Origin: Hyaloperonospora brassicae
Taxonomy: Eukaryota > Oomycota > Peronosporomycetes > Peronosporales > Peronosporaceae
Direction of reading: 5' to 3'
DNA length: 64,000 bases
Assembly (NCBI GenBank): GCA_947650285.1
Contig: CANTFL010001342.1
Span: 558,001-622,000, forward strand
Position numbers and translations under genes: made by a program. Below the pieces are notes generated by a model, which was given only the letters and a program-made list of their open reading frames with translations, was not told the DNA's origin and did no database searches. Positions 15,017 to 63,205 of the stretch are shown here, in pieces. The first letter of the stretch is position 1; each line of letters opens with the position of its first letter.

Positions 15017-15461
15017 TGTAACGAGGTAGCCCGTTACATGAAATTGTCATTAAGGATAGAATGACAATAACGAATATTACGTTGCATATTCTTTCAACAA
15101 TATCACAAAGGATGATGATAGCGTTGGGATGACTGAAGGGTCTACTCATTGGTTGATATCGTGATGGTTATATAAACCCACCAATCGCTACTAGACGCGC
15201 GCAATGGGCGGTGAGCAGACATCATCATTCGTTTGGTTAGATTGATATAATTAAGTCAGGACGAACAGAGACACTAGAGTTATAGGACTTAATTATATCA
15301 AATAACATTTTTACTTTCACCACGACTAGAGACTTTGCCTTGGTCGTTGCCTTCCTCTGTGTAAGTGTTTACACCTAGGTGTGCACTGACCTTCACTTTT
15401 GTCAGTGAAAGGTAAACTCCGTACTGGTAGTCCAGTACGTCGTTGTCGGTGCCCAGTTACA
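15017..15461 (+). mobile_element. Solo LTR of the Ty3/gypsy family, subfamily B
   Basis: The 445-bp sequence begins TGTAACGAGG and ends CCCAGTTACA. It is flanked by a perfect 5-bp target duplication, ATGTA (15012-15016 and 15462-15466). It is close to the 3' LTR at 62722-63205 along most of its length. No internal element sequence adjoins either side, so it is best read as the product of LTR-LTR recombination. Orientation is given by comparison with the plus-oriented element at 55532. Confidence 0.93.
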
Positions 15462-17091
15462 ATGTAGTAGTAGACCGTGCTTAGCTGCTTTTTGTACCAG
15501 CTGCTTTCACCACACAGACAGACATTTGCTTCAAGTCACGTGTGCTGACGTGGAAAAATTGTGTCCCGATGACCGCCACAATCCGCTCTGCTGTAATGCA
15601 ATACACACGTATTTAGGTGTACTGAAGTTGCTGTCCCTGGTCTTAACTGATTCTTTCGCATTCGTTCAGCACAACAATTCGACACGTTCACTATCGACCG
15701 CTTTGATCTAGAGACGTGTTAGCTACAACATATAAGACGGCACGTCCCACACACGCAGCTTTGTCGATTCAACCATATCTTACGGATGCTCCTGCGCAGT
15801 CGGACCTTGAGTATTTTGCAGCCAAATAACGGCGTTTCTGGTAGGTCTGACACGGCTGACGTGGTTGCGACGATCGCTAAAAACCAATACCATATATTTC
15901 TTTGTCTCACATTAATCATTGCCTTTACTGACACTTTCGCAATCGGTCGGGTCCGGCATGGAATCCGAGAAATGCTTGACGCCTAGCGCTGTGTAATTTA
16001 GCTGCGTGAAAGCTGAAAGAAGTATAACGCAAATTGCTTTCGATTCTCGTTACGTGACGAGCGATCGGTGTCTCATCGGATTCGTCTCCGTGCGGTTAGC
16101 TGGTGTCCAATAGAGGATCGCTACAAAGCGACGAGAAGATCAACAAGTCATACACGTCATCCATCAACTCAGCTGCGAACAACGCGAAAAGGTTTTGTCG
16201 AATCGAGCCATGCTAGTAATGTGCTTGCAAGTCCCATTTACAGCATCGAATTCTGACCAGCCGATGGAGATGTACACTTCTAATGGTAGACGAATTGTTC
16301 TACCGAACAAATATGTTTACGGTGAAAGACCAGAACCGTGGAGCTACAAGTTATCTGCGAAAATCTTGCCGATAGCTATCGTCAGAGAAACTTGTTTGTC
16401 CAAACATTCTGGTCCATTACTCTTTTTGTGCGACTTTGAACGTCCAAGATAGTAGTAGTAAGGGCACGCGCGGTGAACCTTTGACTTTTCGTTTGTCTTT
16501 TCTGTTGTAGTTGTGATTTATTGTTTGTGTGTATGTGTTCACTAGTCACGCAAGGATACATCACGATAGGAAGGGTTGCCTATCATTCAGTTTATATTAC
16601 TAAGTATAACTGAGGTAAAACATTTGTACGGCACCACCACCAGCTGCAGCAGCACACCAAGCAGCGACATCAGCACGAAAACACGTCATGAAACAAACAC
16701 GGCAACACTTTCGTCAGCACAGCTCACGGCGTGTCCTAGCCACCGACCTTGATTATACGCAATATGCACGAGAACACCTAAATGTTATACAGTCGTCTGC
16801 ACTTAAGTACCAAAAGGCACGAGAGCTTGCACCGTCCTCATTAATACGATATCATTTTTGCCCTTGTAGCTTGCGCCTCCCATAATGGTATTCTTACACA
16901 CTTCGCATTTAAGGTCCATATTACCTCAACTTATGGGAGCGACAGGGCACGTTCTTTCTAGTGCGAAACGACCAAATGGAAACGCTTAAGTAATAGCGAC
17001 TATAGAGACGGTGACAGTTTGCTACGCCACAAATTTGCACACTAAGACGGTATAAGCGTACACAGAAAATGGATGATACGCAATGCGTACA
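15462..17091. other. Region between solo LTR and full-length element, no supported gene
   Basis: I see only short shadow-like open frames. Nothing recognisable as a gene, RNA or repeat was found on either strand. Confidence 0.5.
17087..17091. repeat. Left target-site duplication GTACA
   Basis: This 5-bp duplication is repeated exactly at 25067-25071 on the far side of the element. Five base pairs is the usual size for Ty3/gypsy integrases. Confidence 0.95.
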
Positions 17092-17479
17092 TGTAACGGG
17101 GCACACCCTTGCGTAACTTAACGCAAGGGATTTGGGTGCCCCGACGGACGTACACGTGGCGAGCGAGGAAGCGTAGGTAGGGTAAAAGTAGAACTGTTAT
17201 ATTAATAAATTAAGTCTTTAAACTACTGTCTCTTCGTTTGACTTAATTCAATTATACTAATATAACTGCATGTATGGTGACGTCTCGTCACCACTCATTG
17301 CGCGCGTCTTGCGGCGATTGGTGGGTTGATATCATCACGATATCAACCAATGAACAGACCCTTTGGTCGACCCTTCAATATCACCACTTTGGTGATATTG
17401 TTTAAAGAATATCCATCTTATATTCTTTATTGTCACTTTCCTTAAGTGACAATATCATGTAACGGGCTGCCCCGTTACA
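17092..17479 (-). repeat. LTR of young element (3' LTR in sense orientation)
   Basis: The 388-bp LTR begins TGTAACGGGG and ends CCCCGTTACA. I find no difference from the LTR at 24679-25066. It holds several perfect hairpins: 17106-17114 with 17121-17129, and a terminal 22-bp palindrome at 17458-17479 that carries its own TGTAACGGG/CCCGTTACA pair. A C8 tract abutting its internal edge is the polypurine tract read on the other strand. Confidence 0.97.
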
Positions 17480-17492
17480 TCACCCCCCCCTT
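17480..17492 (-). other. Polypurine tract (plus-strand DNA priming site)
   Basis: On the minus strand the sequence AAGGGGGGGGTGA abuts the sense 3' LTR, the usual place for RNase H-resistant primer formation. The plus-oriented copy has the same tract (about 62709-62721) with six G residues. Confidence 0.85.
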
Positions 17493-17610
17493 AACTGATA
17501 GTCACCGTGTGACTATCGAAATATGGAGGCCACCCGTTGGCCACCATTGGGACAGGGAGCACTTGTTTGGTCCGTTCCACTCACTTTCCGCTTGACCTCG
17601 CATAGTTAAC

Positions 17611-19215
17611 ATGTCTATGCGAGGTGACTCAAGACCCACACAGCCTGGTGCTGTGCAAGCCTCTGCGGCAGACGCTTCGTCGTCTGCCGCCCCTTCTTCA
17701 CCTGCAGCAACAGGTGCTGCAGGTGCACGCGGTATCACACCGCGTGCGCACGATGACCCCGATGTGGAGGTCATCTACTCTGGCGAGTCAGACGTGTCTG
17801 ACTCGGGCAATGCTTCAGAGGCGTCTCGCTCACCGGCGACGCCTCAGTATTCGCCAAGGCCACTGCCGAACGAACGGACTCGTGATTCGCATCACAGTCT
17901 GTTCGGCAGTGATGACGATGATCAGTGTGGTGAGTTCTATTCTTCACCACCGCCGGCTCGTGCGTCTTCGCACGAGCGTGATGACGATGGCGCGAGCCGT
18001 CGTCAATCTGGGAGCCGTGGTACCGACAAGGGTACCACTGTGAAGCGTGATGAGTTGAAGCCGTGGCGTTTGCCCGAACAACTCATCAATAGCCTGTCTC
18101 ACGAGACAGGCCAACACCATCGAATACCCTTATTCGATGCGACTGAGCTTCACGGCTTGGATCCCAGCGCGAAGAACTTTCGCGCTGAAGAAGACTTTTA
18201 TCTCGATGTCTTCCTTAGACATCGATGGTACAATAGCAACCAAAAGCGTGACAAAACATCGCTTTTGGCTGCGTGGAACGCGTTCGTCCAAAACGTAAAG
18301 AATTTTGGACGAGAAGGGTGGCTCAAGAAACTTGAGGCAACACGCCTCAGGTTCGAACGGCGAACGCCAACCGGTGCTAGGTACCGGTTGCATTGTTTAT
18401 CGAGTGAGGCAGGCATTCTTTGCCTCACATGGGGAGACCCTTGTGCGAGTTGTGTTGACAACTCGCAGCGTGCACATAGGGATGTGTACTCCCTAAATTC
18501 GCCCTGGGGAAGGGCACATCTCTCGGACGAGATGCGTGACGCGATTGCAAACTTGCAATCCGTCTACAAGCGCCTAGGGCGCGTGTTTACCGATGGGCCA
18601 CAGGACTCATCGGATGGGTCTCGTCATACTGGTGGACGAGACCTTCAACATCCATTAACAGCTGAGAGCGGGGCTCCCAGCTGTTCCAAGAGGGTGGATA
18701 CCCCCGCCACTGGACGAGGTAGCTCGTCCTTGATCCTGAATCGTCACGGTGATTCAAGATACGCTCCACTAGAAAGCGTTGATCACCGTGAGCATCCACC
18801 AAAGGATGTGGTGGAGGAGGAAAGACCTCCTCCAGAACCCCAGGCCCACCATCTCGACCCTTACGAGATGGATCGCGCAATCGATGAATTGCGCGATGAC
18901 TTGAAGCACGAGCGCGACCGACGCTACGCTTTGACCGACACCGTGCGGAAGAACCGCAAGGGTCACGAGGCTGATCGGGCGAGGGATCGCGCCGATTATG
19001 CCACGGCGCAGCTTCAGGTCGAGCGGGATGTCCGCTCCCTTTTCGGCGAGCTGGCGACAGCTCGCGGAGAGATAACTCGGTTGAATACCGAGGTATCATA
19101 TCTGCGCGACCAGACGGATCGTCTGGAGCGCGAACGCAAGAACTTGATGGATGTTCTTGAACGTGGGGGCTATCTTCATCGGAAGAAGAAGGCTCGTACT
19201 GACAGTACGACCTAA
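17611..19215 (+). CDS. Antisense open frame of the retroelement: 534-residue protein of unknown function with C-terminal coiled coil
   Basis: I do not recognise this protein. Residues 1-150 are Ser/Ala/acid-rich and probably disordered. Residues ~150-330 look globular, rich in Trp and other aromatics (PWRLPEQLINS, KNFRAEEDFYLDVFLRHRWY, GREGWLKKLEATRLRFERR), with a Cys cluster (CLTWGDPCASC). Residues ~330-415 are low complexity. Residues ~415-520 form a charged coiled coil (ELRDDLKHERDRR, DQTDRLERERKN) before a basic tail. The first ~975 bp lie between the sense chromodomain stop and the polypurine tract; the last ~630 bp overlap the sense integrase-tail and chromodomain frame. An antisense message would need a promoter in the LTR at 17092. 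A degenerate homologue sits at the same place in the other copy. Extra antisense frames are known in some plant Ty3/gypsy elements; a role as repressor or nucleic-acid-binding protein is only a guess. Confidence 0.75.
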   Translation: MSMRGDSRPTQPGAVQASAADASSSAAPSSPAATGAAGARGITPRAHDDPDVEVIYSGESDVSDSGNASEASRSPATPQYSPRPLPNERTRDSHHSLFGSDDDDQCGEFYSSPPPARASSHERDDDGASRRQSGSRGTDKGTTVKRDELKPWRLPEQLINSLSHETGQHHRIPLFDATELHGLDPSAKNFRAEEDFYLDVFLRHRWYNSNQKRDKTSLLAAWNAFVQNVKNFGREGWLKKLEATRLRFERRTPTGARYRLHCLSSEAGILCLTWGDPCASCVDNSQRAHRDVYSLNSPWGRAHLSDEMRDAIANLQSVYKRLGRVFTDGPQDSSDGSRHTGGRDLQHPLTAESGAPSCSKRVDTPATGRGSSSLILNRHGDSRYAPLESVDHREHPPKDVVEEERPPPEPQAHHLDPYEMDRAIDELRDDLKHERDRRYALTDTVRKNRKGHEADRARDRADYATAQLQVERDVRSLFGELATARGEITRLNTEVSYLRDQTDRLERERKNLMDVLERGGYLHRKKKARTDSTT

Positions 19216-19805
19216 GCCTCCCCACGTAAAACGTAGGATGCGTGCGCATCCTACGTGGCAATTCGAGTGTGTATGCATTGCCCTTGCGATGCAACACTCG
19301 AAATGGCCCAATGTATTTCGGCAGTAGTTTACTACTGCCGACACTAGTGACTGCATGTCCAGGTAGGTTTACCGTTGACAGTAGTACTAGGTCATTAACC
19401 TTAAATGAAAGAACATTTGCTCTTCCATTCTTGTCTGCGTTCCGTTTCTGACGGTCCACCGCATTTGCGATGGAGTCCTGAACGAAACGGACTACCGCTT
19501 CTCGAGTCAGCAGGAAGTTCTCTGCTGACTCTTTGTTTTGTCTTTCAGTGCGCTTCGTGCGCACTGCTAAGAGATTGCTCTCTTCTTCAGCGAGGTTGTC
19601 TTCTTCCTCGCTGGCATAATCGTTGGCGATGCTGAATATACCAGCATCGTCATCATCATCCGAATCAATAATAGCGTCTTCGCTATTATTGAGATGATCT
19701 TCTTCATCGATGTCGACTTGATCGACATCGGCATCATACGTGACGACGTTTGCGTCGACACGTGATGAGCAAGAGCCAAAACGGTTTTTGCTCGAGCGAG
19801 TCCCT
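18587..19805 (-). CDS. Integrase C-terminal region, acidic linker and chromodomain (pol 3' part, out of frame with pol)
   Basis: This frame continues the integrase after a one-base disruption. It opens with an acidic stretch, then the conserved C-terminal fold (DRQKRNADKNGRANVLSF, LLPKYIGPFRVL and RTHPTFYVGRLR). A long low-complexity linker overlaps the antisense coiled coil. It ends with a chromodomain (FLVERILNH, YLVQWRGYPPSWNSWEP) followed by a stop at 18587. Chromodomains in such elements bind histone marks and steer integration to chromatin. There is no in-frame start of its own at the junction, so expression must depend on pol. The frame differs from pol by one base at a run of five C residues (19806-19810 plus). 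Confidence 0.85.
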
Positions 19806-22800
19806 CCCCCTTATCCAAGAGCCACACTCTAGAAGGGTGGGCACACGTGGATGGCGTAGGCCATTTACGTAAAACGGTGTGTGCTGTGTTGAAGCATGCA
19901 CCGAATTATTGATGGCGAATTCCACCATGGGTAGGAATTCGCTCCAACTCGGAAACGAGTGGACATATCCTCGAAGAATCTCTTCGAGGACACGGTTCGC
20001 ACGTTCCGTCTGACCATCTGTTTCTGGATGGTCAGAAGTGGACATCTTCAATCGTGTTCCGAGAGTACGGAACACGGTTTGCCAAAATTCCGCCGTGAAC
20101 CGAGGGTCACGGTCGGATACGAGTTCACGGGGTAACCCGTGGAGTCTAAAGACCGTGTCTAGAAAGACACGAGCACAACCTTGAGCCTTGATTGACTCAG
20201 GGACAGCAGCAAGATGGACCATCTTGCTGAATCGGTCCACAAACACAAGAATACCATTATTCTTGTGAGCGTCTTCGGGAAACCCGAAGACGAAGTCCAT
20301 TGAAACGGACTGCCAGCACTCTGTCGGAACAGGCAGAGGCTGCAATGGCGCACGGGATGAAGGACTAGGCTTCACCCGTTGACATACTTCGCAAGCACGG
20401 ATGTACTTGCGAACAAACTGATACTGGCGGGGCCAGTAAAAGTCGCGACTTACCGTGAGGTAAGTCTTTTCTCTACCACGATGGCCGCTTGTTGGGGCAT
20501 CGTGACACTCATACATGATGCGCAAACGCAAATCATGATGAGCGGGTACGACGACACGAGGCGTGTCGTAGGCAACAGCTGTATAGTACAGCAATCCGTT
20601 GCGTGTACTATACCGATCCGATGAGGATCGGTACAAAGCCGGTAAATCCCTCATGGATTTACTGGATGGATTCACCAGATGATCCATCAATCGCAGAAGA
20701 TCCTTATCTTCCGCGTATGCCTTTCGTACGTCGTCAAGTAAACTTGACAACGGGACACTGGCTGACAGTGTCGCAACAGTGGGCTTGTCCTCACTGTTGG
20801 ATTGCGCGTCCGGCTCGAAATCGGGCCGGCGCGAAAGAGCATCCGCGACGACATTGAGTCGTCCCGGCTTATACTCCACGGAGAAGTTATACTCCGCGAA
20901 GAAAGACAGCCACCTCGCCATTCTTTGCGAGAGGTGTGGGCTGTTTACGGCCGTGCGTAATGACGCATGGTCCGTGTAGACAACAAACGGTCTATCTCCC
21001 AAGAGATAGACGCGAAATTTAGCCAGTGCGTATTTCATGGCAAGGAGTTCCTTGTCATGCACTGGGTAATTACGCTCAGCTGCTTGCAGCTGACGCGATT
21101 GATAACAGATGACGCGCTCCGCGCCATCTGCATCGAACTGCATTAACGCACAGCCGATTGCGAAATCGCTGGCGTCACAGACCACATGAAATGGTCTGTC
21201 CTGATCTGCAATCGCCAAGATCGGCGATTGCATCAAGCTTTGCTTGATACCTTCAAAGGAACGCTGGCACTCAGCGTTCCATGACCACTTGACATTTTTC
21301 TTGAGCAAGCAAGAAAGATGTACCGTCATCTCGGCGTAGTTGCGCGAGTACTTGTGCAAGTACGCCGCAAGACCAAGGAACTTTCGAAGTCCCTTGACAT
21401 CGACTGGCACTGGCCAGTCGGTGATCGCCTTGATCTTTTCGGGATCAGGGCGTACGCCGTGTTTTCCCACGATGCACCCAAGAAGTGGTATTTCGCTAGC
21501 CGCGAATATACACTTCTTGAGGTTGGCGTACAACTTATGCTTGCGCATAAGTTGAAGAACCTGACGAACGTGAGTTCTGTGAACTTCAACGTCCGTCTTC
21601 CCGTCCATAGCCCGGCTATGGACGAACACATCGTCGAAGTAACTCGGTGCGAAGTCTCGCACCGGTCTCAACAGATTTGTTACACATCTGTTGAATGTTG
21701 CAGGGGCATTACTCAGCCCCTGTGGCATCACTAGCCACTCCCACAGCATCCCGCTGGGGGTACTCACTGCTGTGAACGGGACGTCCCGTTCACGCATCAG
21801 GATCTGATAGAATCCATCCATCAGATCCATGGACGAAAAGATGGTACTCTTTGACATACCATCTATGATGACGTCCTTCCTCGGTATCGGCGTCTGAGCC
21901 GGTACCGTTGCAGCATTCAATTTGTTGAATGCGTGCACTATCCGCCACCCTCCTGTGGCCTTTCGCACACAGAAGGTCGGAGAGCTGTGAGGGGATGTCG
22001 ATTCCCTCACATGGCCCGCTGCTAAGCGATCGGCAAAGAACTTGTCGATCGCTATCACTTGTTCACGAGGCAGTGGCCACTGCTTCATGACACAGTATTT
22101 CGATCCCGGTTTGAGCTCGATCTCGTGTCGAGTGCCTTTGTCCTTAGGCAACTCGCAAGGTACGGATTCAGGGAACACATCCCTGAATTCGATCAAATCC
22201 TTATACAAAGGATTTGCCTGAAGTGACTCCCAGGATTGGGACGCGTATCGCTCAATCCGAGTCTTCTCATCGAGGACACTTTCGTCCATCGATGAGCTGC
22301 TGAGAACCCGTTCGTTCTCAGCAAATACTGTTGCCGACCGAATGTCGGTCACATACTCGTCCTCTGTGACGAGTACGCAGATCTGCTTGACTTTGCCACT
22401 ACGCAGATCACGCAAGAACCGTTTCGGTTCTAGCGTTGGCAACTGAGTTATCTCCGAAGTCAACTTCGGAGGCACAATCAAATCAAGCGTATAAGCGCCT
22501 ACGCTTGATCCGTCATTAACCAAGACGTTCAACGTCTCGGTTTCTTCCTGGGATCTTGCTTCCACAGGGTGCTGAGGGCCTGATCCCTCAGCAAGCAACT
22601 CTTGAGGAACTCCTTCCTCAAGTACGTGGGGACTTATTCCCTCGACGTCTTCCGACTGTGGCTGTGCAACCACAGTCAGGAACCGATCCTCTACGGTCGA
22701 CTCTCCAGTCGACCTAGGATTTTCATGTTGCCCCTTGGGGGCAACAGATTTCTTTCTTCTAAGATGCTGCCCGCTAGGCATGCATCCATGTCCCGGTCCA

Positions 22801-23426
22801 CTCGACTTATTCGAGTGGTGGACCTTCGGCGCAGCCTGTACTTCTGTACAGCCGCCGGGAGCTTGCTCCACAGTGTAGTGATCAACTACACTGTGACCTT
22901 GTGCAGTCGTGCTAACGACCGTACCGCAAGTGAGGCCATCGCGCTCACTCGCAGAACATCCACACGCTTGTGGACGCTCCATGACGTTCATCAGATGGCC
23001 ATCTGATGAACAAGCGGCAGGCATCTTCACGGATCGATGCTGCCAGCTCACCCTTGGCTCGTACCTTCTGAGCCAAGGTAATCCCAGGATGACATCAAAT
23101 TTGTCATCCAGATCTAGTACGATGAAATCATCATCGTACTGCTCGCCCTCTAACGTGTAGTGGATTCCTACTACACGTTTCTCAACGGTTATCAATGCGC
23201 CTGTTGCAAGGCGCACCGTCATCCTTGTGAGGGGAATGTCGCGCTCAACGAACTTGAGCCTACGACCCTCTAGTGACTGGCGACGAACAAAGTTGTTCGA
23301 CGCCCCACAGTCTACTAGGGCACGAAGCGACAAGTCATTTGTCGCTTCCAACTTTAAGGTGATGAGCGAAACGTCATCACCAGGTGCAGAGACACACAAT
23401 GATTGTGTATCTGGAGCAACTTTCAT
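19734..23426 (-). CDS. pol: Pol polyprotein: aspartic protease, reverse transcriptase, RNase H, integrase core
   Basis: Reading from the ATG at 23426-23424, the ~1230-residue frame shows a retropepsin with LVDCGASNNFV, reverse transcriptase (MPQGLSNAPATF; active site YFDDVFVHS at residues ~596-604), RNase H (CDASDFAIGCALMQF, then YTDHASLRTA), and integrase with an HHCC zinc finger (GHRGREKTY, CEVCQRV) and D-D-E core (MDFVFGF, LVSDRDPRF, HPETDGQTER). The frame is open upstream of the ATG to at least ~23580 and overlaps the gag end in the -1 frame, so translation is probably by -1 frameshift from gag rather than at this ATG. All catalytic residues I can check are present. At 19806-19810 the frame slips into a short wrong-frame tail and stops at 19734. 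Confidence 0.95.
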   Translation of the reverse strand: MKVAPDTQSLCVSAPGDDVSLITLKLEATNDLSLRALVDCGASNNFVRRQSLEGRRLKFVERDIPLTRMTVRLATGALITVEKRVVGIHYTLEGEQYDDDFIVLDLDDKFDVILGLPWLRRYEPRVSWQHRSVKMPAACSSDGHLMNVMERPQACGCSASERDGLTCGTVVSTTAQGHSVVDHYTVEQAPGGCTEVQAAPKVHHSNKSSGPGHGCMPSGQHLRRKKSVAPKGQHENPRSTGESTVEDRFLTVVAQPQSEDVEGISPHVLEEGVPQELLAEGSGPQHPVEARSQEETETLNVLVNDGSSVGAYTLDLIVPPKLTSEITQLPTLEPKRFLRDLRSGKVKQICVLVTEDEYVTDIRSATVFAENERVLSSSSMDESVLDEKTRIERYASQSWESLQANPLYKDLIEFRDVFPESVPCELPKDKGTRHEIELKPGSKYCVMKQWPLPREQVIAIDKFFADRLAAGHVRESTSPHSSPTFCVRKATGGWRIVHAFNKLNAATVPAQTPIPRKDVIIDGMSKSTIFSSMDLMDGFYQILMRERDVPFTAVSTPSGMLWEWLVMPQGLSNAPATFNRCVTNLLRPVRDFAPSYFDDVFVHSRAMDGKTDVEVHRTHVRQVLQLMRKHKLYANLKKCIFAASEIPLLGCIVGKHGVRPDPEKIKAITDWPVPVDVKGLRKFLGLAAYLHKYSRNYAEMTVHLSCLLKKNVKWSWNAECQRSFEGIKQSLMQSPILAIADQDRPFHVVCDASDFAIGCALMQFDADGAERVICYQSRQLQAAERNYPVHDKELLAMKYALAKFRVYLLGDRPFVVYTDHASLRTAVNSPHLSQRMARWLSFFAEYNFSVEYKPGRLNVVADALSRRPDFEPDAQSNSEDKPTVATLSASVPLSSLLDDVRKAYAEDKDLLRLMDHLVNPSSKSMRDLPALYRSSSDRYSTRNGLLYYTAVAYDTPRVVVPAHHDLRLRIMYECHDAPTSGHRGREKTYLTVSRDFYWPRQYQFVRKYIRACEVCQRVKPSPSSRAPLQPLPVPTECWQSVSMDFVFGFPEDAHKNNGILVFVDRFSKMVHLAAVPESIKAQGCARVFLDTVFRLHGLPRELVSDRDPRFTAEFWQTVFRTLGTRLKMSTSDHPETDGQTERANRVLEEILRGYVHSFPSWSEFLPMVEFAINNSVHASTQHTPFYVNGLRHPRVPTLLECGSWIRGRDSLEQKPFWLLLITCRRKRRHV

Positions 23427-23497
23427 CAAGAGGTTTGCAAATTCTCTTGAGGTTGCTGGATCAGTAGGGCGCTCCGCCCCTACTGACCCCGACCATT

Positions 23498-24634
23498 TTA
23501 TGATGGCCCGTCTCGCTGTTGCGGCTTCGCAACAGCGCTGGACCCACGCCCATTGCCCTTTCTGGCGAATGGTCGTCCATTTCGCTCAGTACTGTTTGGT
23601 ACTGGGCGCGGAGCACTACACTCGTATGCGTAGTGCCCTAACTTCTGACAGCGATTGCACCTCTGCAATCGCTTGTTGTTTGAAGAGCGAGGTCTCTCGA
23701 TCTCAACATAACAGAGTTCCATTGGTTCTGGAACTCCGATCTCTTGTCGTCTCGGTAGAAGATAAGAGTTTGAGCTAGCATGAGCCTGTCTCATGCTAAA
23801 GTCTTCCTGTTCCGCGGCTGATATTGCTTCTTCAAGCGTATTCAGCTCAAGGCGGAACAGGTGGCTCCTGACGGGCCCTTCTGCGAGCCCTTGCATGAAC
23901 ACCGTAATCAACGTGTGTTCATGAACTGGGTTTGCAGTTATACTACTCGCTAGGAGTCGTATATGTTGTGCGTAAGCGTGCACATCACGCTTACCCTGCT
24001 TGAGTTTCACGAGCTCAGAACGAGCCCTGAACTCAGCACGTGGCGGCTCAAACGTTTGTCTGAGCCGGGACTTGAAGTCATCTAGCGACCTAAACACATT
24101 TGGGTCGCTACTCTCGAGTCCCAGGGACCAAGTTTTGGCACGCCCTGCCAAGTGGGTCTGAGCAAATGTGAGTTTCATTTGATCATCTTCGACGCGACGA
24201 GCCCTTAGGGCTCTGTCGAGTTCGACAAACCATAGTAACAGGGAGTCCTCCGGGACTCCACTGTACTTGGAGATGTCGACTTTCATCACTTCGGGACGAC
24301 GCGCATGCGCCGTCCCGCCCACAGCAGCATGGAATTGCTGCTGTCTCAACAGCTCCGTCTGTTGAGCACCGAGTTCTCTCAACTGCTCGGCCTGTTGAGA
24401 GCCTTGCTGGTGAAGCAAGGCTACTTTCTCCCTCTCGAGAGCAAGTTCATTGTGAATGAACTTGGCGATAGCAGCATGTTGTTGGTCTCTGTCTAGAGAC
24501 TCCAACATGGTGCTGACGACGAGTTCGCCTACGGTAGAACTCATTCGTTCTACCGCACCCCATTCGATGTCACTCAAATGGGTAAACCCTTCACGCGTGG
24601 CGTGAAAGGTGTCTTCTTCATCCAACATGTTCAT
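23498..24634 (-). CDS. gag: Gag capsid/nucleocapsid protein of the young element
   Basis: The 378-residue protein forms the virus-like particle and packages the element RNA. The central part matches the retrotransposon gag capsid family (LTFAQTHLAGRAKTWSL, FKSRLRQTFEPPR, HAYAQHIRLLASSI). A single CCHC zinc knuckle, CNRCQKLGHYAYEC, near the C terminus serves RNA binding. A Gln-rich heptad stretch (residues ~75-105) may be a coiled coil. The ATG at 24634-24632 lies 44 bp from the 5' LTR and sits at the tip of an 11-bp-stem hairpin (24619-24642). The stop at 23498-23500 is inside the overlapping -1 pol frame. Confidence 0.95.
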   Translation of the reverse strand: MNMLDEEDTFHATREGFTHLSDIEWGAVERMSSTVGELVVSTMLESLDRDQQHAAIAKFIHNELALEREKVALLHQQGSQQAEQLRELGAQQTELLRQQQFHAAVGGTAHARRPEVMKVDISKYSGVPEDSLLLWFVELDRALRARRVEDDQMKLTFAQTHLAGRAKTWSLGLESSDPNVFRSLDDFKSRLRQTFEPPRAEFRARSELVKLKQGKRDVHAYAQHIRLLASSITANPVHEHTLITVFMQGLAEGPVRSHLFRLELNTLEEAISAAEQEDFSMRQAHASSNSYLLPRRQEIGVPEPMELCYVEIERPRSSNNKRLQRCNRCQKLGHYAYECSAPRPVPNSTERNGRPFARKGNGRGSSAVAKPQQRDGPS

Positions 24635-24660
24635 GTTGGATGATGTGGTCCTTGGAAGGA

Positions 24661-24678
24661 CTACTAAGTGCTACCAGG
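24661..24678 (-). other. Putative primer-binding site
   Basis: On the minus strand the sequence starting two bases inside the 5' LTR reads TGGTAGCACTTAGTAG, beginning with the TGG expected opposite a tRNA CCA end. I cannot name the tRNA. Confidence 0.6.
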
Positions 24679-25066
24679 TGTAACGGGGCACACCCTTGCG
24701 TAACTTAACGCAAGGGATTTGGGTGCCCCGACGGACGTACACGTGGCGAGCGAGGAAGCGTAGGTAGGGTAAAAGTAGAACTGTTATATTAATAAATTAA
24801 GTCTTTAAACTACTGTCTCTTCGTTTGACTTAATTCAATTATACTAATATAACTGCATGTATGGTGACGTCTCGTCACCACTCATTGCGCGCGTCTTGCG
24901 GCGATTGGTGGGTTGATATCATCACGATATCAACCAATGAACAGACCCTTTGGTCGACCCTTCAATATCACCACTTTGGTGATATTGTTTAAAGAATATC
25001 CATCTTATATTCTTTATTGTCACTTTCCTTAAGTGACAATATCATGTAACGGGCTGCCCCGTTACA
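24679..25066 (-). repeat. LTR of young element (5' LTR in sense orientation)
   Basis: The 388-bp LTR reads the same as the one at 17092-17479. Read on the minus strand it begins TGTAACGGGGCAGCCCGTTACA and would contain the sense promoter; no TATA box is obvious. Confidence 0.97.
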
Positions 25067-25071
25067 GTACA
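25067..25071. repeat. Right target-site duplication GTACA
   Basis: Exact repeat of 17087-17091. Confidence 0.95.
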
Positions 25072-36919: not shown

Positions 36920-39551
36920 TTCTTCTACTTTACATAAAAGGCGAGATAAATCTTTACTCATGCTCTTATCCTTAGATACAAAGCGCTTCACGCGCAACTT
37001 TCACAGAGATATTGCTCATGACCATAACCGTGTCTGTGTTCGACATTTGACGTTTGACAATGTACAACTAGTCAATCCGTTATCAAATTATGACAGAAAG
37101 ACTAATTAGTCAACGATAAGCCGTGTACCAGTAGATGTAGTACATATCATTATATTTGTTGACAAATGACTGATACATTACAATTTTAATAGTAACATAC
37201 GTTTTTACAGAATGCGAACCAAATATCATACTATCTAGCCTACATATCGGACCATGTATCGGATATCCATTATCCTTATATCACCCGATTACCGCCGTAT
37301 GATCCCGCAACATGTGCCTTTTTGATCTTTTTACATAGGGTCTTACTCATCTTTAAGTCATACAAAAATGAACAATTTATCCTTATGTAAATTACATTTC
37401 ATAAGCCTATATTTCGATGTTTGCGTAAGTTACACTTCAACAATTTGTATTTAAAAAAATGGTTAGTGGTTCATCATTATTCAGCATTATTAGAATGTCA
37501 GCAGTTTTTTGCTTTGTTAATCTTATAGTACTCACTTGAATTCGCTGAATTTGTTCTTGAACGATATGTCAGCTTAAATCAAATTGAAATCTTTTCCTTT
37601 ATTATATGGGTTTTTCGCTTTTTAAATTAAAACTATAATATAATCTTGAGTCGCATAACTAATATAATATTTGATACAGCCTCTTGATAAATGGCTTCAC
37701 ATCCGTTTCCTCCATCATACCCGTACATGCGGATATATTTTTAAATTCCTAGTTTTCCTCTGTCGTTGATAGATAAATACTTTTAATACATTAGAGCCCT
37801 GTATACTGCGCTTCCTACTTATCGAAACCAAATCAATGGGTGTTTTCGCGATTGTCATGATTAATGACCCAATGAATGTCGGAAATCCCGATAAAACACA
37901 ATTTCTACGGCTTAATAATGACAAAATTGCATCATAAGACTGTGGTTAATGATATCTTGATTTGTTGGGGTGACCAAACAACGCATGCCACCTATATCAA
38001 ATTCGATATAATTTCTTGCCAGTTCTAAACAAATTGGATCCAGTCATTCGAATATATACATCGAATCGAATCTAGTGCACCTGCAAAGATGCATAAGCAT
38101 TGCTTTTTGCTTCAATATTATCGGACGTGGTGTCTATATCATCGTAATAGGAGCTGGTCGCTGTTAAATTCTTGTTTCGACAGAGTATCCGACGGCGTCA
38201 ACAAAAATTGTATGGTTTTCCACTACATACGTCCTTGGATTTGTCGGATTGTTGTATTGATAATATATTATCGTCCATCTGTAATTAAAGTATTACTTTT
38301 TTATAAAGTTAACTGTGCTATCCAAAAACCTATAGGGGTGGTTCCCTATGGTAGTGGTGCAGTAGGCTGATCTTAAAGATGATGGCTGGTAATCTAATCC
38401 CCTCAATTTGCTTATAAAAATCCGTGAGGGTGACAATCGCAGTATGATTCATACAGTAGCTGAAAAAACTGCCACTGCCTTAAAATACACATGGTTGAAT
38501 TATACAGGATATAGTGGGTTGTTTGCGTACACGAATATACCTCACCAAATCAACCAGCTAAATTGATGACCTCTATCCTCTAATCCCTTCTGTTTATTTA
38601 GCTACTAAAGATACGTCCTTTTGATCTCATTATCAGTTGCGAATCATTTGTCATCACCGTGGACAACCAATGATATAATACCTCCATAATCCATCATATT
38701 ATAGTACACACAAATTGATAGAGCAGCGCTGTTATTTATGTTTAAACACCAAATTGTCGAGCTCCTTATCCCCGACCTGCCTGATTGTAAAGGGTTGTCC
38801 AAGGCTAATAGCACCATGTACAAAGTGTTTGGACTTCCACAGCCAAATTTGACCAAGTTAAACACCTGTTGCGAAAGCTTTAAATTGACATGAGGATACG
38901 CCAAATTAAATTCCGCACCGTACAACTAAAGTTCAAGCACGGATGCTAGTTTAATGTTTATTCTGATGGGACCGCACGAACAACTGATATCAATGACTTG
39001 TACTGAAAGCCAGGCGCTACCAATCTTTGTGTGCCGCAAGCCGAGCTATAAATATGATAACATACCCATAATGATTCGTTATATTAGATTAGACAAATTA
39101 TCTTTATACTAAATATACACGTGCAAGAACTTACTATGGTTGACTATTTACCAAAGATGCTTAGCGTGTAGCGGATTAAACAATTCTTATAGTTTTTGAA
39201 TTTAAACGGTTAAGTATTCATGTCTCGTACTTCAAAAGCATTTTATGAAAACGCGCTACCACTAAATTAGGCAATTTGTCGCTAGTGTCGATTTTAAATG
39301 TATTACCGGCAAAAAAGTCATCGTATCTAGAAAGATATCGTTTCTTTAAGATCATTCTTGAATACGCACATTTTACCATAATTTATACGGTCTTAGCTTC
39401 GAGTAATGCGCAGGTGAGATTTCGTTTGATTACAGTCACTTCTGCTACATTCCAACCATTTCATCTTTTTATTCAGTATCTTACCGATATATTTCGCACC
39501 AATTGTCAGTGTCGAAATCGTTATTTCTAGCACATTCACCGTCTTGAGATC

Positions 39552-39589
<38 letters not shown>

Positions 39590-42500
39590 AATGTCAAAAG
39601 CTGCATTCGACTCATCAAATATATTAGAACATTAAACCTTCGCAATTTGATTCGCTTGTGCGCGCAGAACATAAGCTCTGACTGTGAGACGTCTAAGTTG
39701 ATTTTGCTTCACATCTATCCTTTCATCGATGCTTAACTTGCTACATTTATATCACAATTAAGATTCTTAACTACATTCTTTACTGCTGATGAAGTTATGC
39801 AATTATCGTCGACATCATATGTCGCATGAGATTTTGCGTCGACAAAGACAGTAGCAGAGAGACTTGTACAAGAGTTATGCTTGCTTTTTTGTAGAACCTG
39901 TGTCTTATGACGGTTCCTGAAGTGTGGATTTACTTCAATAATCTTGATTCTTTTAAACTCGTGCAGAATCAAGAATAGTGAGGTAAATACACCGTTTATG
40001 AAGGTCTATTGACTGCATATTGTCGAGTTGTTAAAACATTATCGCCTATACTCAGGTCATGTACTGTTTATAAATTATCCGTTGTAAAGTAATTTTGTAA
40101 TTGATAAAGTCTTTATCATGTATGTCAACTTTTTGAACAATTTCTAATCAAATTGCTGCTTACTTGTTTTCGTCGTGCCTCTCGTAATATGGTCAGTAAT
40201 TTATGATCGACGCGTTATAAGTATGGTGAATACATACAACGAGCCACACAATTTGTGCAAAATAATGTCTACCTCCTTGGCGAAGATTTGTTTGTTATCT
40301 ATCAGCATATGTAAGTATACACATATACATGATAGCGTTTAATACCCTACTGTTTGCATCATAGTATCGACATAGTCTCAAGAGTCCGAAATTGTCGCAT
40401 TACAGAATTTATAGAGAATCGGTAGGTTCTATTTTTTAACTTACTGCTTTCTTTTGCGTTCCGCGCATCCAGATGCTTATTAAACAATTGCCGCCTCGAT
40501 AAGTCAATATATAAATAATAAAGGTAAAGTAGTCTTCCCATGTTAATATCGACTTACGGTACATGATCTATCTGAATTCACAACCAGTATGGCGATCAGA
40601 TCACTCGCCGTAATTACTAACGAGGCATTTCTCAGTCTGTCTATTCTTGTAGTAAATGATGTGCCACGTCAAGCACCGCAAATATGCGTTTATTTTACCT
40701 TAATTCCTTGTATGATGCCATTGCCTCGTATTGATAGTATGAAGTCCGTGTACACCGTTTCTTGTTAAAAAAACTTTTATATGCTATTTTTCTTGTTAGT
40801 ATGATAGGGCATTATATAAACGATGTTAAGACTCTCAAATCTACATTTGACGCGTTTAGTATATAATCAAATCTACCATCTCCTAATCAACCATCGTCTT
40901 AAGGTTATAAGCCCATACGTGTTTGGAAGATCGTGGCGTACGTTATAAGAGGCCGATTTATAGGCAGCTGCAAGCTTAAATTGCAGCTTATATCAGGTTT
41001 CATTATCAGGTCACTTTTTTAGTGGTGTGGGGAATCGTCTCTCACATACCAACCCACTTGTAACAATCTTATATTTTACACGACCTTACAAGACCATTCT
41101 TGCTCCTAGTAAAATCTATGCATGTAATTTGATCAGTTATAACACATTGTTCGTTGCACTGCTTACATACCTGTGCATAGTTTGCACTATGAACGTGTTG
41201 TAGATCTTTCAGCCTACATGTTTTGTCGTGGCCGTCAAAAATGGGTATACCATATTGATTCGTGCCTTCCCCAGGGCGTCGGTAAAATGCGTTGCCAACA
41301 AATGGATAAAAATAAATTATAAAATGCGTTGTAAACAAAAAAATGAGCATATTTATTATCGCTGTAAACATTTGCTCTGGTGTCAAAGAACCACAATCGA
41401 TCAGAAGGACGAACGGTCGGTTGATCTTGAACGTCTTAATTTAAAAAAAACCATTGTAAAGGTCCTACTGGTCAACAGTTCATTACTCCAATATCTTATA
41501 TATACCTATTGCTTTGATTAAAGCAATGAAAGCATTGCTTTGCAACCCATATAAGCTTTCATATTAATATTGGCTTCACGACAGTATGCTAGACTTAAGA
41601 ATTGTCAGCTTTTCGATCCTTTCTTGACACAAAATTCGATCAGCCATAGCATTGGTGCTTCGCGAACTTGGATATAACATAAACTAGTCTTCTTGTCTAA
41701 ACTATGGAGATTTCATGTAATATTATGTCCCGACCGATTAAAAGTCAACCACATCTTTACATCTAATTTTACGACCTATATACTTTCCAACGTCTCCGCT
41801 TTGATCATCCCCAGGACTCGGGAACGCTAGTTTATATTTGTGAGTTTTAATAAAGTAGTAAACCTGCTCGGCGATGTAATTCTCACCCCGCGTGATCGTT
41901 TCACTCTTTCAGTACTTATTCGCTCTATATTCAGCGTGCCGTCAACCATGTATCGGATCCTGTCTACTCAAAGTTTAGTACCGATATGATTTTAAAGATT
42001 TCGCTGATTTGAAATTATACGTAGAAGACGATCTTGAGTCTCAAGCCCAGTCTAATATTATATTATCTAAAACTCATCCGTAAGTTTTCGCATGTTTTGC
42101 TCTTGGTATAATTTTTTACTGGATTCCAAATTATCGATGGATTATTGCAATTGTACGATTTAAAAATTACCATTTGATAAAGACGTGCCCACAATCCCTT
42201 AATCTATGTCTCCATGTATATATTGTTTTGAACTTCTTCTATACTTTACTAAATCGTAGCAATACTTTGGACATTACGCCATTTAGCCGTACTCTTTAAA
42301 AGCTTCATCATCATCCACTTGCATTATATAAAACTTTTTTGTCCCGGTCATATGATATTACATCTATCGTCCGGTGAGTCTATCTGTATTGGTCATTAAC
42401 GACTTATAGACCTGTCTGTGAGTATATATAGATTGATCTTTTGATCTTCAACACTACAAATGAAGTGGAGCCAAATAATCATTTGTGCTTAGATTCTGTT

Positions 42501-55526: not shown

Positions 55527-55531
55527 ATGTA

Positions 55532-55972
55532 TGTAACGGGGCTACCCATCAGATGATGGCACCATTGTGAAAAAACATGGAAACAAAGAATATTACATTG
55601 AATTTTCTTTTAAAATTATCACGAAATACAGTGATATTGTCGGCATGACCGAAGGGTCAACTCATTGGGTGATATCGTGATGATATTAATCCACCAATCG
55701 CTGCTAGACGCTCGCAACGGGTGGTGAGTAGACGTCATCATACATTTAGGTATATTGATATAATTAAGTACGGACAAAAAAAGAATTAGAGTTAAACGAC
55801 ACAAATATATTAAACGCATGTTTAAATTTTACCACGACTAGAGTCTTTATCTTAGTTGCTTATCGTCCTCTGGATCAGTGTTATACATATCAGAACACTG
55901 ACCTTTACTGTTTTTAGTGGGAGAAAACTTCGTGCTGAAAATCCAATACGTAATTGTCGGTGCCCCGTTACA
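55532..55972 (+). repeat. 5' LTR of decayed element
   Basis: The 441-bp LTR begins TGTAACGGGG and ends GTGCCCCGTTACA. It belongs to the same subfamily as the solo LTR at 15017 but is visibly diverged from its own 3' partner, which indicates an old insertion. Confidence 0.9.
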
Positions 55973-56022
55973 CCTATTAAGACCTTTATAGTTCGTCCAA
56001 TGATTACAATCCCATCGCCCAA

Positions 56023-57125
56023 CATGAACATGTTGGACATTGAAGAAGACAACAGCTTTCACGGCACCCGTGAAAACTACTCCTATTTGATCGATATCGA
56101 TTGGAGTGAGACCGAACGAATGAGCTTGACCGTTAGCGAAGAATCTACCTGGGCTATGCTATATTAGAAAGAAATAGGGACGACCAGAATGCCGTCATCA
56201 CCAAATTCTTGCAACGAGCACTTGATGAGTCAAGAGCGCGGGTGACCTTGCTGCAGCAACAAGATCATTAGTGGACTGAAACTCTGACACAACAACAGTC
56301 TCAGTCCGCAGAGGCGACGCGTGAGCGTCGACGGGAATCTCTATAGCTAGGAATCTACAAGTATCGGAGAGTCGAGGGAGACTCGCTGTAAAGATAGTAT
56401 GTCAAGGCGGACCGTGCTATCGAGGCTCGTCGCATCGACAATGAGCAAATAAAAGTCGAATTTTTTCAGTCGTACTTGACAGGGGACGCCAGGAATTGGG
56501 CCCTGACTCTCAAGTTACACGATCTAAACGTTTGTGGGTAGTTAAAATTCTTCAATATCCTGCTCAGGAAAATGTTTGAGCTGCCAAGTGGCGATTTCAG
56601 GACTATTTTAGTGTTTCTGCAACTCAAACAGGGTAAGCATAAGGTTCACACTTACGCCCAATACGTGCGTTACCTTGCAATTTGCATGACAGAAAATCTG
56701 CGAGTGAATTTGTGCTGATTACAATATTCATTGAATGACTTTCAGATAATACCTTCAGGGACCACCTGTTCCGCGAAGAGCTTAAGAGGGTCTCGGACTC
56801 AATCCACGCTGCGGAGCAGGAAGCCTTTAGTGTGAGACAGGCTCATACTGCTTTGGTCCCTTATCATCGACAGACAAGACAAGCGGTTCGAGGTTCAGAG
56901 CCAATTGACCTCCGTTATGTCGTGGGCGAAAAACCTTGCCCTGCAAATGACAAGCGGTCGCTGAGATTCGATCGCTGTCACAAGCTGGGACACTACGTAT
57001 TCGAATGCAGTCTATTCCGCTCTGTACCTTGCGGTGCAAAGAGGAATAACCTTCCACCAGCCAGGATAACTGAAGGACGAGGGCCCGACGCTGTTGCACA
57101 GCCTCAACAGCGAAGAGGACCATAA
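56023..57125 (+). pseudogene. gag remnant of decayed element
   Basis: It begins MNMLDIEEDNSF, matching the young gag start MNMLDEEDTFH, and ends with a damaged zinc knuckle: the RFDRCHKLGHYVFEC stretch has lost the first Cys of the CCHC set. Stops near 56167 and several frameshifts break the frame. The 56832-57125 segment is the longest open piece. Confidence 0.85.
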
Positions 57126-57199
57126 AAAGTGGTCGGGGTCAGTTGGGGCGGAGCGCCCTACTGATCCAGCAACATCAAGAAAATTTATAAACTATTGAC

Positions 57200-60100
57200 G
57201 ACGGTTTCTCCCGACACACAGATCTCTATATCTCTCCACTCGGTGATTTGGATCCCTTCATCACCTTAACGTTGGAAGTGACAAAAAACTTGTCATTGTG
57301 CACCCTAGTTGAGTGTAGGGCATCGAAAAAAATCGTTCGTCGCCAGTCAGGAGAGGCTGGCAGACTAAACTTCGTCGAGCGGGAGATCCATCCGACGAGG
57401 ACGACGGTGCGAGTAGCGACAGGCGCATCAATCATTGTGAAAGAAAACACGTAGCCGGAATCCACTACGCGTTAAAGAGGAAAGAGTAAGATGATGATTT
57501 TATCGTATTAGATTTGGAATACATGGTCGACGACATCCTACGTCTGCTGTGGCTCAGGATATACGAGCCAAGGGTGAGCTGGCAGCATCGATCAGTATCG
57601 ATGCCTGCCACTTGTTCATCAGATGACGATCTGAAGAATATCTTGGAACGCCCAATTTCCTGTGGGCGTACTGCGAGTGATTGCGATAGCCTCACTTGCG
57701 GTACGGTCGTTAGCACGACTGTACAAGAACATAGTGTAGATGATCACTACATTGTGGAAAAAAACTCTCCTGAATCCTGTTAAATTGACATTCCAGGAAG
57801 TTACCGAGACATTACATGTCTTGGTCAATGCCGGATCAAGCGTAGTCGCTTATACGCTTCATCTCAATGCGCCTCCGAAGATAACTTCGGAGATAACCTA
57901 ATTACAAACGCTCGAACCAAAAAGGTTCTTGCGTGATCTGCGTAGTGGCACATGTCAAGCAGATTTGCATACTCGTCAAAGAAGATGAGTATGTGGCCGA
58001 TATCAGGTCGGCAACAGTATTTGCTGAGACCGAACAAGTTCTCAGCAGCTCATCGATGGACGAAATTGTCCTCGATGAGAAGACTCGGATTGAGCGATAC
58101 ACGTCTCAACCTGGGAGTCACTTCAGTCAAATCCTTTGTATAAGGATTTGATCGAATTCAAGGATGCGTTCCCTGAATCCGTACCTTGCGAGTTGCCTAA
58201 GGACAAAGGCACTCGACACGAGATCGAGCTCAAACCGGGCTCGAAATACTGTGACATGAAGCAGTGGCCACTACCTCGTGAACAAGTACCAGCGATCGAC
58301 AATTTCTCTGCCGATCGCTTAGCAGCGGGCCATGTGAGGGAATCAACATCCTCTTACAGCTCTCCGACCTTCTGTGTGCGAAAGACCACAGGAGGATGGT
58401 GGATAGTGCACGCGTTCAACAAGTTGAATGCTGCAACGGTACCGGCTCAGACGCCGATACCGAGGAAGGACGTTATCATAGATGCTATGTCAAAGAGTAC
58501 CATCTTTTCGTCCATGGATCTGATGGATTAATTCTATCAGATCTTCATGCGTGAACGGGGCATCCAGTTCACGGCAGTGGGTACCCCCAGCGGGATGCTG
58601 TGGGAGTGGCTAGTGATGCCACAGGGGCTGAGCAATGCCCCTGCAACGTTCAGCAGATGTGTTACAAATCTGTTGAGACCGGTGCGAGACTTCGCACCGA
58701 GTTACTTCGACGATGTGTTCGTCCATAGCCGGGCTATGGACGGAAAGACGGACGTTGAAGTTCACCGAACTCACGTCCAGAAGGCTTTTAATTTATGCGC
58801 AAGCATATGTTGTATGTTAACCTCAAGAAGTGTATATTCGCGGCAAGCGAAATACCACTTCTTGGGTGCATCGTGGGTAAACACAGCGTACGCCCCGATC
58901 CCGAGAAGATCAAGGCAATCACCGACTGATCAGTGCCAACCGATGTCAAGGGACTTAGAAAGTTCCTTGGACTAGCGGCGTACTTGCACAGGTACTCGCG
59001 CAACTACGACGAGATAACTGTTCATTTTTCTTGTTTACTCAGGCAAAATGTGAAGAGGTCATGAATCGCGGACTGTCAGCGTTCCTGTAAAGGTACAAGC
59101 AAAGAATGATGCAATCCCCAATATTAGCGATTGCAGATCAAAACAGATCATTCCATGTGATCTGGGACGCCATCGATTTTGAAGTCTGCTGTGCGTTGAT
59201 GCAGTATGGCACAGACGTCTCAGAGCGCGTCGTCTCCTATCGATAGCGTCAGCTGCAACCAGCCAAACGCAATTACCCAGTTGCATGACAAGAAACTACT
59301 TGCCATGAAGTATGCACTGGCTAAGTTCCGGGTCTATCTCTTTGGAGATAGACCGTTCATCGTATATACGGACCATGCGTCACTACGTACGGCCGTAAAC
59401 AGTCCACACCTCTCGCAAAGAATGTCGAGGTATTTGTCGTTCTTCGCGGAGTATAACTTCTCCGTGGAGTACAACCCAGGACGACTGAACATTGTCGCTG
59501 ATGCGCTATCACGTCGGCCGAATTTCGAGCCGATTGAGCAAGTCAACAGTGTAGTCTTGCCCACTATTGTGGCGCTGTCAGTCAGCGTGCCTTCGTCGCC
59601 TTTACTCGACGACGTGCGGAAGGCGTACGCAGGAGATACGAATCGCCTCCATTTAATAAATCATCTTGCGAACCCATCCCGATAATCTATGTCGAACTGC
59701 TGTACTACAAAGCAGTTGCAGACGACACACATCGTGTCGTCAATTCTGATCAGAATGATTTCGCGTTCACGTTTCACGTTCAAATGACCCGATAGCCCAT
59801 TCGGTGGAAGTCGTGGTAAAGAAAAGAGGTATCTTTCGGTAACCACAACTTTTACTTGCCACGCCAGTATCTATTTATGCGCGAGTGCATTTCTTTTTGC
59901 GAGGTCTATTGGCGGGTATAGCCTAGCCTTTCATCCCGCGTGCCATTGTAACTTTAGCCGATCCCGGCAGAGTATCGATAGTCCGTTTCCATGGAATTCT
60001 CCTCGAGGTTCCCGAAGACACTCACAAGAATAATAGTATTATTATGTTTATGGACCGTTTCAGCAAGATGGTGCATCTTGCTGCGGTTCCCGAGTCGATT

Positions 60101-61157: not shown

Positions 61158-61239
61158 ACTCTCAGGTTTGTTATTCAGCAATTCCCTCTCGTGACGAGCT
61201 GCCACTAGCTCGTCGCGCAAGTGACGTTTCTTGCGTTCA

Positions 61240-62590: not shown

Positions 62591-62708
62591 TTGTTATTTA
62601 TGAGGGGCAAAGTCAGAATGAATGGGTCTGACGAACAACTGCTTCCCGTCCCGTTGGCATCCAACGGGTGGCCACAAAAGGTTTAATTGTCAAACGGTGA
62701 TTATCAGT

Positions 62709-62721
62709 TAAGGGGGGTGAT
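62709..62721 (+). other. Polypurine tract of decayed element
   Basis: TTAAGGGGGGTGA abuts the 3' LTR, equivalent to the tract at 17480-17492. Confidence 0.8.
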
Positions 62722-63205
62722 GTAACGGTATCCCGTTAAATGATATTGTCATTAAGGATAGAATGACAATAACGAATATTACGTTGCATATTCTTTCAAC
62801 AATATCACAAAGGATGATGATAGCGTTGGGATGACTGAAGGGTCTACTCATTGGTTGATATCGTGATGATTATATAAACCCACCAATCGCTACTAGACGC
62901 GCGCAATGGGCGGTGAGTAGACATCATCATACGTTTGATTAGATTGATATAATTAGGTCAGGATGAACAGAGACACTAAAGTTTTAAGACTTAAATATAT
63001 TAAATAACAGTTTGACTTTTACCACGACTTGAATCTTTGTCTCAGGAGCTATTGGTCCTCTGGATTAGTGCTATATATAGCAGGTCACTGACCTTTACTG
63101 CTGTCAGTGGGAGATAGCTCCTTACTGAAAAGTCATTACGTAGTTGTCAGTGGGAGATTACTCCGTACTGAAAAGTCAGTACGTTGTTGTCAGTGCCTTG
63201 TTATA
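62722..63205 (+). repeat. 3' LTR of decayed element
   Basis: The ~484-bp LTR begins TGTAACGGTATCCCGTTA. A duplicated CAGTGGGAGAT...CTGAAAAGTCA block (about 63100-63180) makes it ~40 bp longer than the 5' LTR. The end (CTTGTTATA) is degraded. Most of its length is close to the solo LTR at 15017-15461. Confidence 0.88.

Follow-up and report, generated by a model that had tools for sequence, protein, structure and literature searches.

Why should the genes and terminal repeats of a retrotransposon be filled with short perfect hairpins? The question is raised by an element in a 64,000-nucleotide stretch of the genome of the oomycete Hyaloperonospora brassicae (here the window: positions 558,001 to 622,000, forward strand, of contig CANTFL010001342.1 in assembly GCA_947650285.1, which comprises 100.6 Mb in 898 contigs). 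The element, designated W, is a Ty3/Gypsy chromodomain retrotransposon that occupies 17092-25066 of the window on the minus strand, and a preliminary description had it tiled with hairpins from one long terminal repeat (LTR) to the other. A gene that fuses triosephosphate isomerase to GAPDH identifies the genome as that of a stramenopile, most probably an oomycete. Other loci and pieces taken from the assembly carry L-numbers.

Hairpins in W and their controls

With maximal perfect stems of at least 8 bp and loops of 3-14 nt as the standard count, the 7,975 bp of W hold 110 stems, against a mean of 1.44 and a maximum of 4 in 100 dinucleotide shuffles, and the pattern is thus real; the kilobases flanking the element hold 0 and 1. 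Stems wholly inside a single part number 7 in the right LTR (24679-25066, the 5' LTR in the sense of W), none in the 44-base leader, 13 in the gag open reading frame (ORF; 23498-24634), 49 in the pol ORF for protease, reverse transcriptase (RT), RNase H and integrase (19734-23426, stems counted over 19734-23429), 9 in an ORF with SH3_Tf2-1 and chromodomain matches (18587-19564), 22 in an antisense ORF of 534 amino acids that lies over the 3' end and overlaps the chromodomain ORF (17611-19215, plus strand), and 6 in the left LTR (17092-17479, the 3' LTR). The LTRs, gag, pol and the antisense frame all bear stems, as had been proposed, but the tiling is not gap-free, hairpin-poor gaps reaching 201 nt. 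The sixteen stems originally counted in 19900-21100 were recovered as 16 with loops of 0-20 nt, or as 14 wholly inside with loops of 3-14 nt, and the median spacing of non-overlapping hairpins is 51.5 nt (stems of at least 7 bp) or 39.5 nt (at least 6 bp).

Shuffles that preserve both protein and codon usage (200 per ORF) leave 1.16 stems in pol, 0.48 in gag, 0.45 in the chromodomain ORF and 0.71 in the antisense ORF. The stems of W are fitted into genes through codon choice, as had been claimed for pol, and they also fill the LTR. A host Sec7/BIG ORF and a host BT1-type transporter ORF, in which no pattern had been noticed, have 0 stems each, with 1.01 and 0.38 in their own codon-preserving shuffles, so that the hairpin finding survives both comparisons that had been offered as able to refute it. 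Chance, composition and codon usage are ruled out as the source of the stems by the shuffles, and an assembly artifact by copies on many contigs that have stems in common. Only 5 of 50 pol stems pair third codon positions with third positions (p = 1.3e-4). The arrangement can be seen in a hairpin at 20009-20036, in the integrase stretch SDHPETDGQ, which has 10-bp arms (20009-20018 and 20027-20036) and an 8-nt loop: the arms encode SDH and DGQ and the loop PET, and the last three residues of the HPETDGQTER earlier assigned to these arms, TER, fall outside.

Stem lengths in W are mostly 8-10 bp. With loops of 3-30 nt, stems of 8, 9, 10, 11 and 12 bp number 36, 37, 27, 8 and 1, and none is longer, so that stem size is capped near 10-12 bp; a few stems with loops below 3 nt reach 12-13 bp. 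Loop lengths peak at 4-5 nt, the median hairpin span is 24 nt, and an excess of pairs in runs of 6 or more spans distances of about 3 to 26, fading past about 24. No clear sequence motif is common to the W hairpins, no shared loop motif is apparent in the loop lists, and regular spacing amounts to only a mild excess of 5-20-nt gaps. The pairs are only slightly enriched in G+C (227 of 440 arm bases); arm G+C is 0.536 against 0.515 in the rest. One-mismatch stems are plentiful, with 52 windows of 9 pairs beside 74 perfect stems of at least 9 bp.

The preliminary description had likened the pattern to ordered RNA structure, a likeness that is not borne out in the usual sense. An RNA helix tolerates G.U and does not tolerate A.C; in one-mismatch stems of W, read in sense, G.U and A.C occur 24 and 26 times in 8-pair windows, 18 and 15 times in 9-pair windows and 14 and 15 times in 10-pair windows, with at most 3 of each expected from shuffles. 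Pair-breaking changes among copies, counted over lax stems with one mismatch allowed, are similarly divided, 13 to G.U and 13 to A.C among shared changes and 112 and 113 among private ones. Folding energy lies far below that of 20 codon shuffles, with z of -23.6 sense and -25.9 antisense for pol and -13.1 and -13.3 for gag, against -2.3 for a piece of the host BIG ORF; the related L056 gives -7.8 and -6.2, and in a second folding set of 17 ORFs antisense is lower than sense in the four hairpin loci. Because G.U is not in excess and the antisense strand folds as well, ordinary sense-RNA structure is a poor explanation, and the constraint looks strand-symmetric.

Related families and other loci

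Fourteen further Ty3 loci were picked from reverse-transcriptase hits and examined as pieces of about 2-5 kb, W itself being examined whole. Six are of the W family (pol 90-98% amino acid identity, 8-14 pol stems per kb). L056, with 58% identity to W pol, has 5.5 stems per kb, and L049, L051 and L058 (56-58%) have 2.6-3.7; L055 and L061 (56%) have no pol stems of at least 8 bp, nor have the remote Ty3 loci L050 and L054 (28%), which hold 2 and 1 stems per locus. In spite of this, L055 has a lower folding energy than its codon shuffles (z of -6.3 in sense and -6.5 in antisense), because it has a different, 5-bp geometry, of which the preliminary description made no mention: in 4.5 kb, stems of 5 bp or more with loops of 3-5 nt number 79, against 9.5 in shuffles, and hardly any reach 7 bp. 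The excess of 5-bp stems begins sharply at loop 3 (27 against 2.8, with only 5 against 2.5 at loop 2), as real hairpins require; pairing distance is cut at about 13, and the median hairpin span is 14 nt. L099, downstream of pol in the L055 element, has the same geometry (28 against 3.8), and L061 belongs with L055 to this 5-bp family.

Stem size is thus family-specific, mostly 8-10 bp in W, about 7-9 bp in two related families and 5 bp in a third. Where the stems lie also differs mostly by family: 1 of 15 stems in L056 and 2 of 11 in L049 have an axis in common with W, whereas the close pair L049-L051 shares 8. The loop-closing pair is pyrimidine-purine in 72 of 88 L055 hairpins and purine-pyrimidine in 26 of 32 in L056, W favoring neither (59/107). 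The first hairpin base is G in 22 of 32 cases in L056 and 15 of 24 in L049, and the third is C in 20 of 32 and 13 of 24, respectively; a sequence preference on top of pairing is possible in these two. Arm G+C in L056 is 0.618 against 0.533 in the rest. In the set of 17 folded ORFs, L056 and L055 stood out clearly, L049 and L051 were weakly low in sense (z -2.4 and -2.2, no lower than the -2.5 of RVT_1 locus L021), and the others lay between -2.5 and +1.7.

Among the loci examined, the strong signal is confined to one group of Ty3 families. Thirty RVT_1 loci, L009-L038, putatively LINE-like by RT length, hold 0-3 stems each, and together with L050 and L054 they rule out a general property of this genome's transposons. 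Restriction of the tiling to one Ty3 group may not be strict, because stem excess is also found in Copia-type loci and a mild excess of short stems (at least 5 bp, loop 3-5) in L050 (22 against 8.2) and in a few RVT_1 loci such as L026 (19 against 7.2). Ten RVT_2 (Copia-type) loci, L039-L048, include four (L040-L043) with 4-7 stems and three (L045-L047) with 3, where shuffles give 0.2-1.0; two of the former four, L040 and L042, showed no energy signal when folded. Part of the stem excess in L040-L043 has larger loops, of 15-39 nt. One 1.5-kb query had no match in plasmid sequences, and a single protein scan over viral contigs turned up 2 pattern hits, of which neither is a relative.

Maintenance of the hairpins

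Copies of W were compared with respect to selection or by-product. The pol alignment holds 20 sequences over a 3.2-kb piece, namely W and 19 copies, a twentieth (L064) having been dropped as too short. Changes carried by three or more sequences on each side, polarized by copy age, were called shared and taken as changes of the lineage still making copies, and those in one sequence only were called private. Private changes gained 36 stems and lost 211, whereas shared changes gained 13 and lost 7, with 2 kept that form one compensated pair (Fisher p = 1.8e-6 for shared against private changes). The contrast with private changes holds at a two-carrier threshold (37:14 gained:lost, p = 6e-16) and at five carriers (7:5, p = 9e-4). 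An initial count for the lineage (10 mismatch-to-pair, 2 compensated and 0 pair-to-mismatch among 45) was replaced by this symmetric count, as it leaned on stems seen in young copies. With arms defined from the W copy alone, synonymous changes divide shared:private as 19:61 in arms, 20:35 in loops and 124:173 elsewhere (arms versus elsewhere, p = 0.004), and nonsynonymous changes do not differ (28:133 in arms versus 90:397). In twelve related LTRs (L005, L034, L077-L086), shared changes affect 3 of 132 arm columns versus 27 of 220 others (p = 0.0007), private changes are even (26 arm and 40 other columns, p = 0.78), and columns differing from W number 3 in arms and 34 outside. When two LTR subfamilies are set against each other, differences fall in 8 of the 100 columns assigned to arms in both and in 56 of 208 non-arm columns; this comparison omits columns with gaps or without a clear majority and is biased towards kept stems. 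The arms are slow-evolving at synonymous and LTR sites, and the loops are not.

Selection of some strand-symmetric kind is taken to maintain the hairpins, at a probability of about 0.6. Several results pull the other way. Gain versus loss taken alone is not significant at three carriers (13:7, p = 0.26) or at five (7:5), and becomes so only with two; codons inside the arms of W show slightly lower conservation than the rest (identity to L056 at 84 of 160, for example, versus 399 of 630); the LTR arms may be constrained for reasons other than hairpins; and when mismatches were counted per copy in seven copies, the ratio was 76:41 in favor of sense G.U, a count in which inherited states enter repeatedly. 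To these can be added a run of three neighboring compensated pairs within a single LTR stem of a six-sequence alignment, which resembles a copied patch and fits a neutral alternative, a mutational drive in which the reverse-transcribed strand would fold back at imperfect palindromes and copy one arm from the other without benefit to the element. Protein selection would then only filter, and the stem size of a family would reflect its reverse transcriptase. Such a drive would be at home with the strand symmetry, with the different stem places of different families and with the slight G+C enrichment of W pairs, and arm homogenization of this sort is known in yeast (PMC8604942). It is nonetheless unlikely as the main cause, and selection is favored over it because neutral arm-to-arm copying predicts concerted, not slow, evolution of arms. 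Unbiased copying should give fast concerted arms in noncoding DNA, but the LTR arms are 5-7 times slower than other LTR columns with private changes equal, and concerted change at the neutral rate is not what is seen, although LTR functions besides hairpins could contribute. Only 3 of 96 LTR stem pairs have two Watson-Crick types, each in at least 2 of 25 sequences; the young copy keeps the many one-mismatch windows noted above, which efficient conversion would remove; and the two remote Ty3 loci and RVT_1 loci L009-L038 reverse-transcribe too and lack the pattern. The by-product of template switching put forward at the outset is disfavored by the same slow arms at synonymous and LTR sites, and a drive may act alongside selection.

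Two selective alternatives are less attractive still. Structure of the sense-strand RNA, which would serve packaging by Gag, RNA stability, control of translation or escape from RNA sensors, as proposed for ordered genome structure in some RNA viruses, would account for the very low folding energy relative to codon shuffles, for loops that begin at 3 nt as real hairpins need, and for constraint on the arms, but it is made improbable by the lack of a G.U preference, an equally structured antisense strand, no apparent shared loop motif and an arm G+C barely raised in W, though higher in L056. Packaging and the slowing of ribosomes, both suggested in the preliminary description, are sense-strand actions that do not predict strand symmetry. 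The other alternative is that the hairpins are sites with a family-specific footprint for an element-encoded factor (Gag, integrase, RT or the protein of the antisense ORF) that would act on DNA or on the two strands of complementary DNA; this is strand-symmetric by nature and agrees with family-specific stem size and with the base preferences of L055, L056 and L049. A sequence-reading dimer would not need the perfect pairing that spans positions without clear base preference, however, and extrusion from duplex DNA is not to be expected of arms as short as 5 bp. Such a factor seems unlikely, but family-specific stem size and base preferences keep it under consideration.

The tiling is symmetric and size-capped, depends on no single sequence in W, and extends across the LTR, gag, pol and the antisense ORF. 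Among selective readings, interference with pairing is the simplest. What would matter is that a strand of the element pairs with the complementary one, sense RNA meeting antisense transcripts or small-RNA guides of antisense polarity; hairpins formed locally would fold both partners and so slow their pairing, and selection would favor self-complementarity of both strands. That the hairpins function by two-strand self-folding against small-RNA silencing, a role also listed in the preliminary description, is proposed tentatively and at less than even odds. The wider form of the proposal, in which a whole-length self-complementary script with family-set stem length is selected on both strands and uses the degeneracy of the code as a sequence-agnostic defense against homology-based silencing, is rather unlikely to hold in full; element RNA, antisense RNA and guides from either would then self-fold rather than pair together.

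In W, L055 and L056 alike, the 3' end is covered at a corresponding place by a long antisense ORF (17611-19215, L099:648-1901 and L100:447-1826), which suggests that antisense RNA exists in these three families. Host RNA interference (RNAi) components are represented by 3 Piwi-domain hits and 6 RNase III-domain hits, including two tandem pairs. In Phytophthora, 25/26-nt small RNAs arise mainly from transposable elements (PMC3804510), and the 24-nt median span of W hairpins is close to this class. A predicted fold of -3 kcal/mol or better on both strands is reached by 47% of 25-mers in W (26% in shuffles) and by 52% in L055 (23%). The predicted 25-mer folding, RNAi parts and antisense ORFs would fit an anti-silencing role, short of proof. 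The fit has its flaws: the three antisense ORFs have no mutual similarity by BLASTP; the L055 hairpin span of about 14 nt is not small-RNA length; L055 codon register is not skewed (17/15/23, with third-third pairing in 17 of 55); and for 101 human short hairpin RNAs, guide-strand structure was reportedly uncorrelated with activity, although target accessibility mattered (PMC2648742).

W among known systems

Ty3/Gypsy chromodomain elements have LTRs, a 5-bp duplication, gag, the order protease-RT-RNase H-integrase, SH3_Tf2-1 and a chromodomain. In W are found LTRs (388 bp each, identical) between 5-bp target duplications GTACA at 17087-17091 and 25067-25071, a gag matching Retrotrans_gag (Ty3 capsid), the same order of enzymes, and the chromodomain. 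It goes beyond ordinary elements of this type in its hairpin tiling and in the long antisense ORF over its 3' end, which had no Pfam match above cut-off and only weak coiled-coil-type matches. W belongs to a large young family: a search with its LTR listed 41 matches, 40 of them full-query at about 100% identity (the best 40 of 2631 candidates scored). An older, decayed relative in opposite orientation at 55531-63023 (plus strand; pol 81% identical across 3.4 kb, the remainder about 71-78%) still bears hairpins, with 22 stems in 57000-64000 against 1.4 in shuffles. A solo-like LTR fragment lies at 15018-15321 on the other strand with 78% identity to the W LTR, and elsewhere its older subfamily has kept some W stems and has other stems of its own. 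At L005:1150-1887 an 89%-identical LTR fragment directly adjoins a 100%-identical LTR, as if a copy had inserted beside an older one. A raw count of 11 stems at about 39001-40000 coincides with an AT run (39552-39586) and was taken as low complexity.

Coding self-complementarity has precedents. Nematomorph mitochondrial genes have perfect inverted repeats in conserved coding sequence that avoid third-third pairing; these reach 284 bp and are nearly all perfect or absent, and their cause is unsettled, with conversion favored by the authors (PMC6649704). Perfect repeats placed in coding DNA by codon choice, disfavored third-third pairing (in W, not in L055) and gain and loss between relatives are points of likeness to these palindromes, whereas the W stems are short, capped, often with one mismatch and present also in noncoding LTRs, in a nuclear retrotransposon whose stem size differs by family. 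Genome-scale ordered RNA structure (GORS) is similar in a folding energy far below sequence-order controls along a coding genome, but is a property of one RNA strand; in W both strands are equal, hairpins are short, perfect and capped, and neither the acceptance of G.U nor the more structured sense strand of GORS is found. Homogenization by template switching also yields perfect short inverted repeats in coding DNA, but is known as scattered mutation events (PMC8604942), unlike the slow arms and approximately one hairpin per 40-50 bases of W. No earlier description of a hairpin-tiled LTR retrotransposon was found in open full texts (subscription journals and preprints being outside scope), in agreement with the preliminary description, and the two-strand, family-sized tiling is regarded as the new part, coding self-complementarity being already known.

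In summary, with about 76-fold more perfect stems than in shuffles along 8 kb, W is extraordinarily self-complementary for DNA that encodes proteins. The differences in stem size among related families of one genome provide a natural comparison for whether small-RNA silencing, reverse transcription or packaging shapes the sequence of a mobile element beyond the proteins it encodes. If the hairpin constraint is ignored, statistics based on codons and the mapping of small RNAs to such elements may give misleading results.

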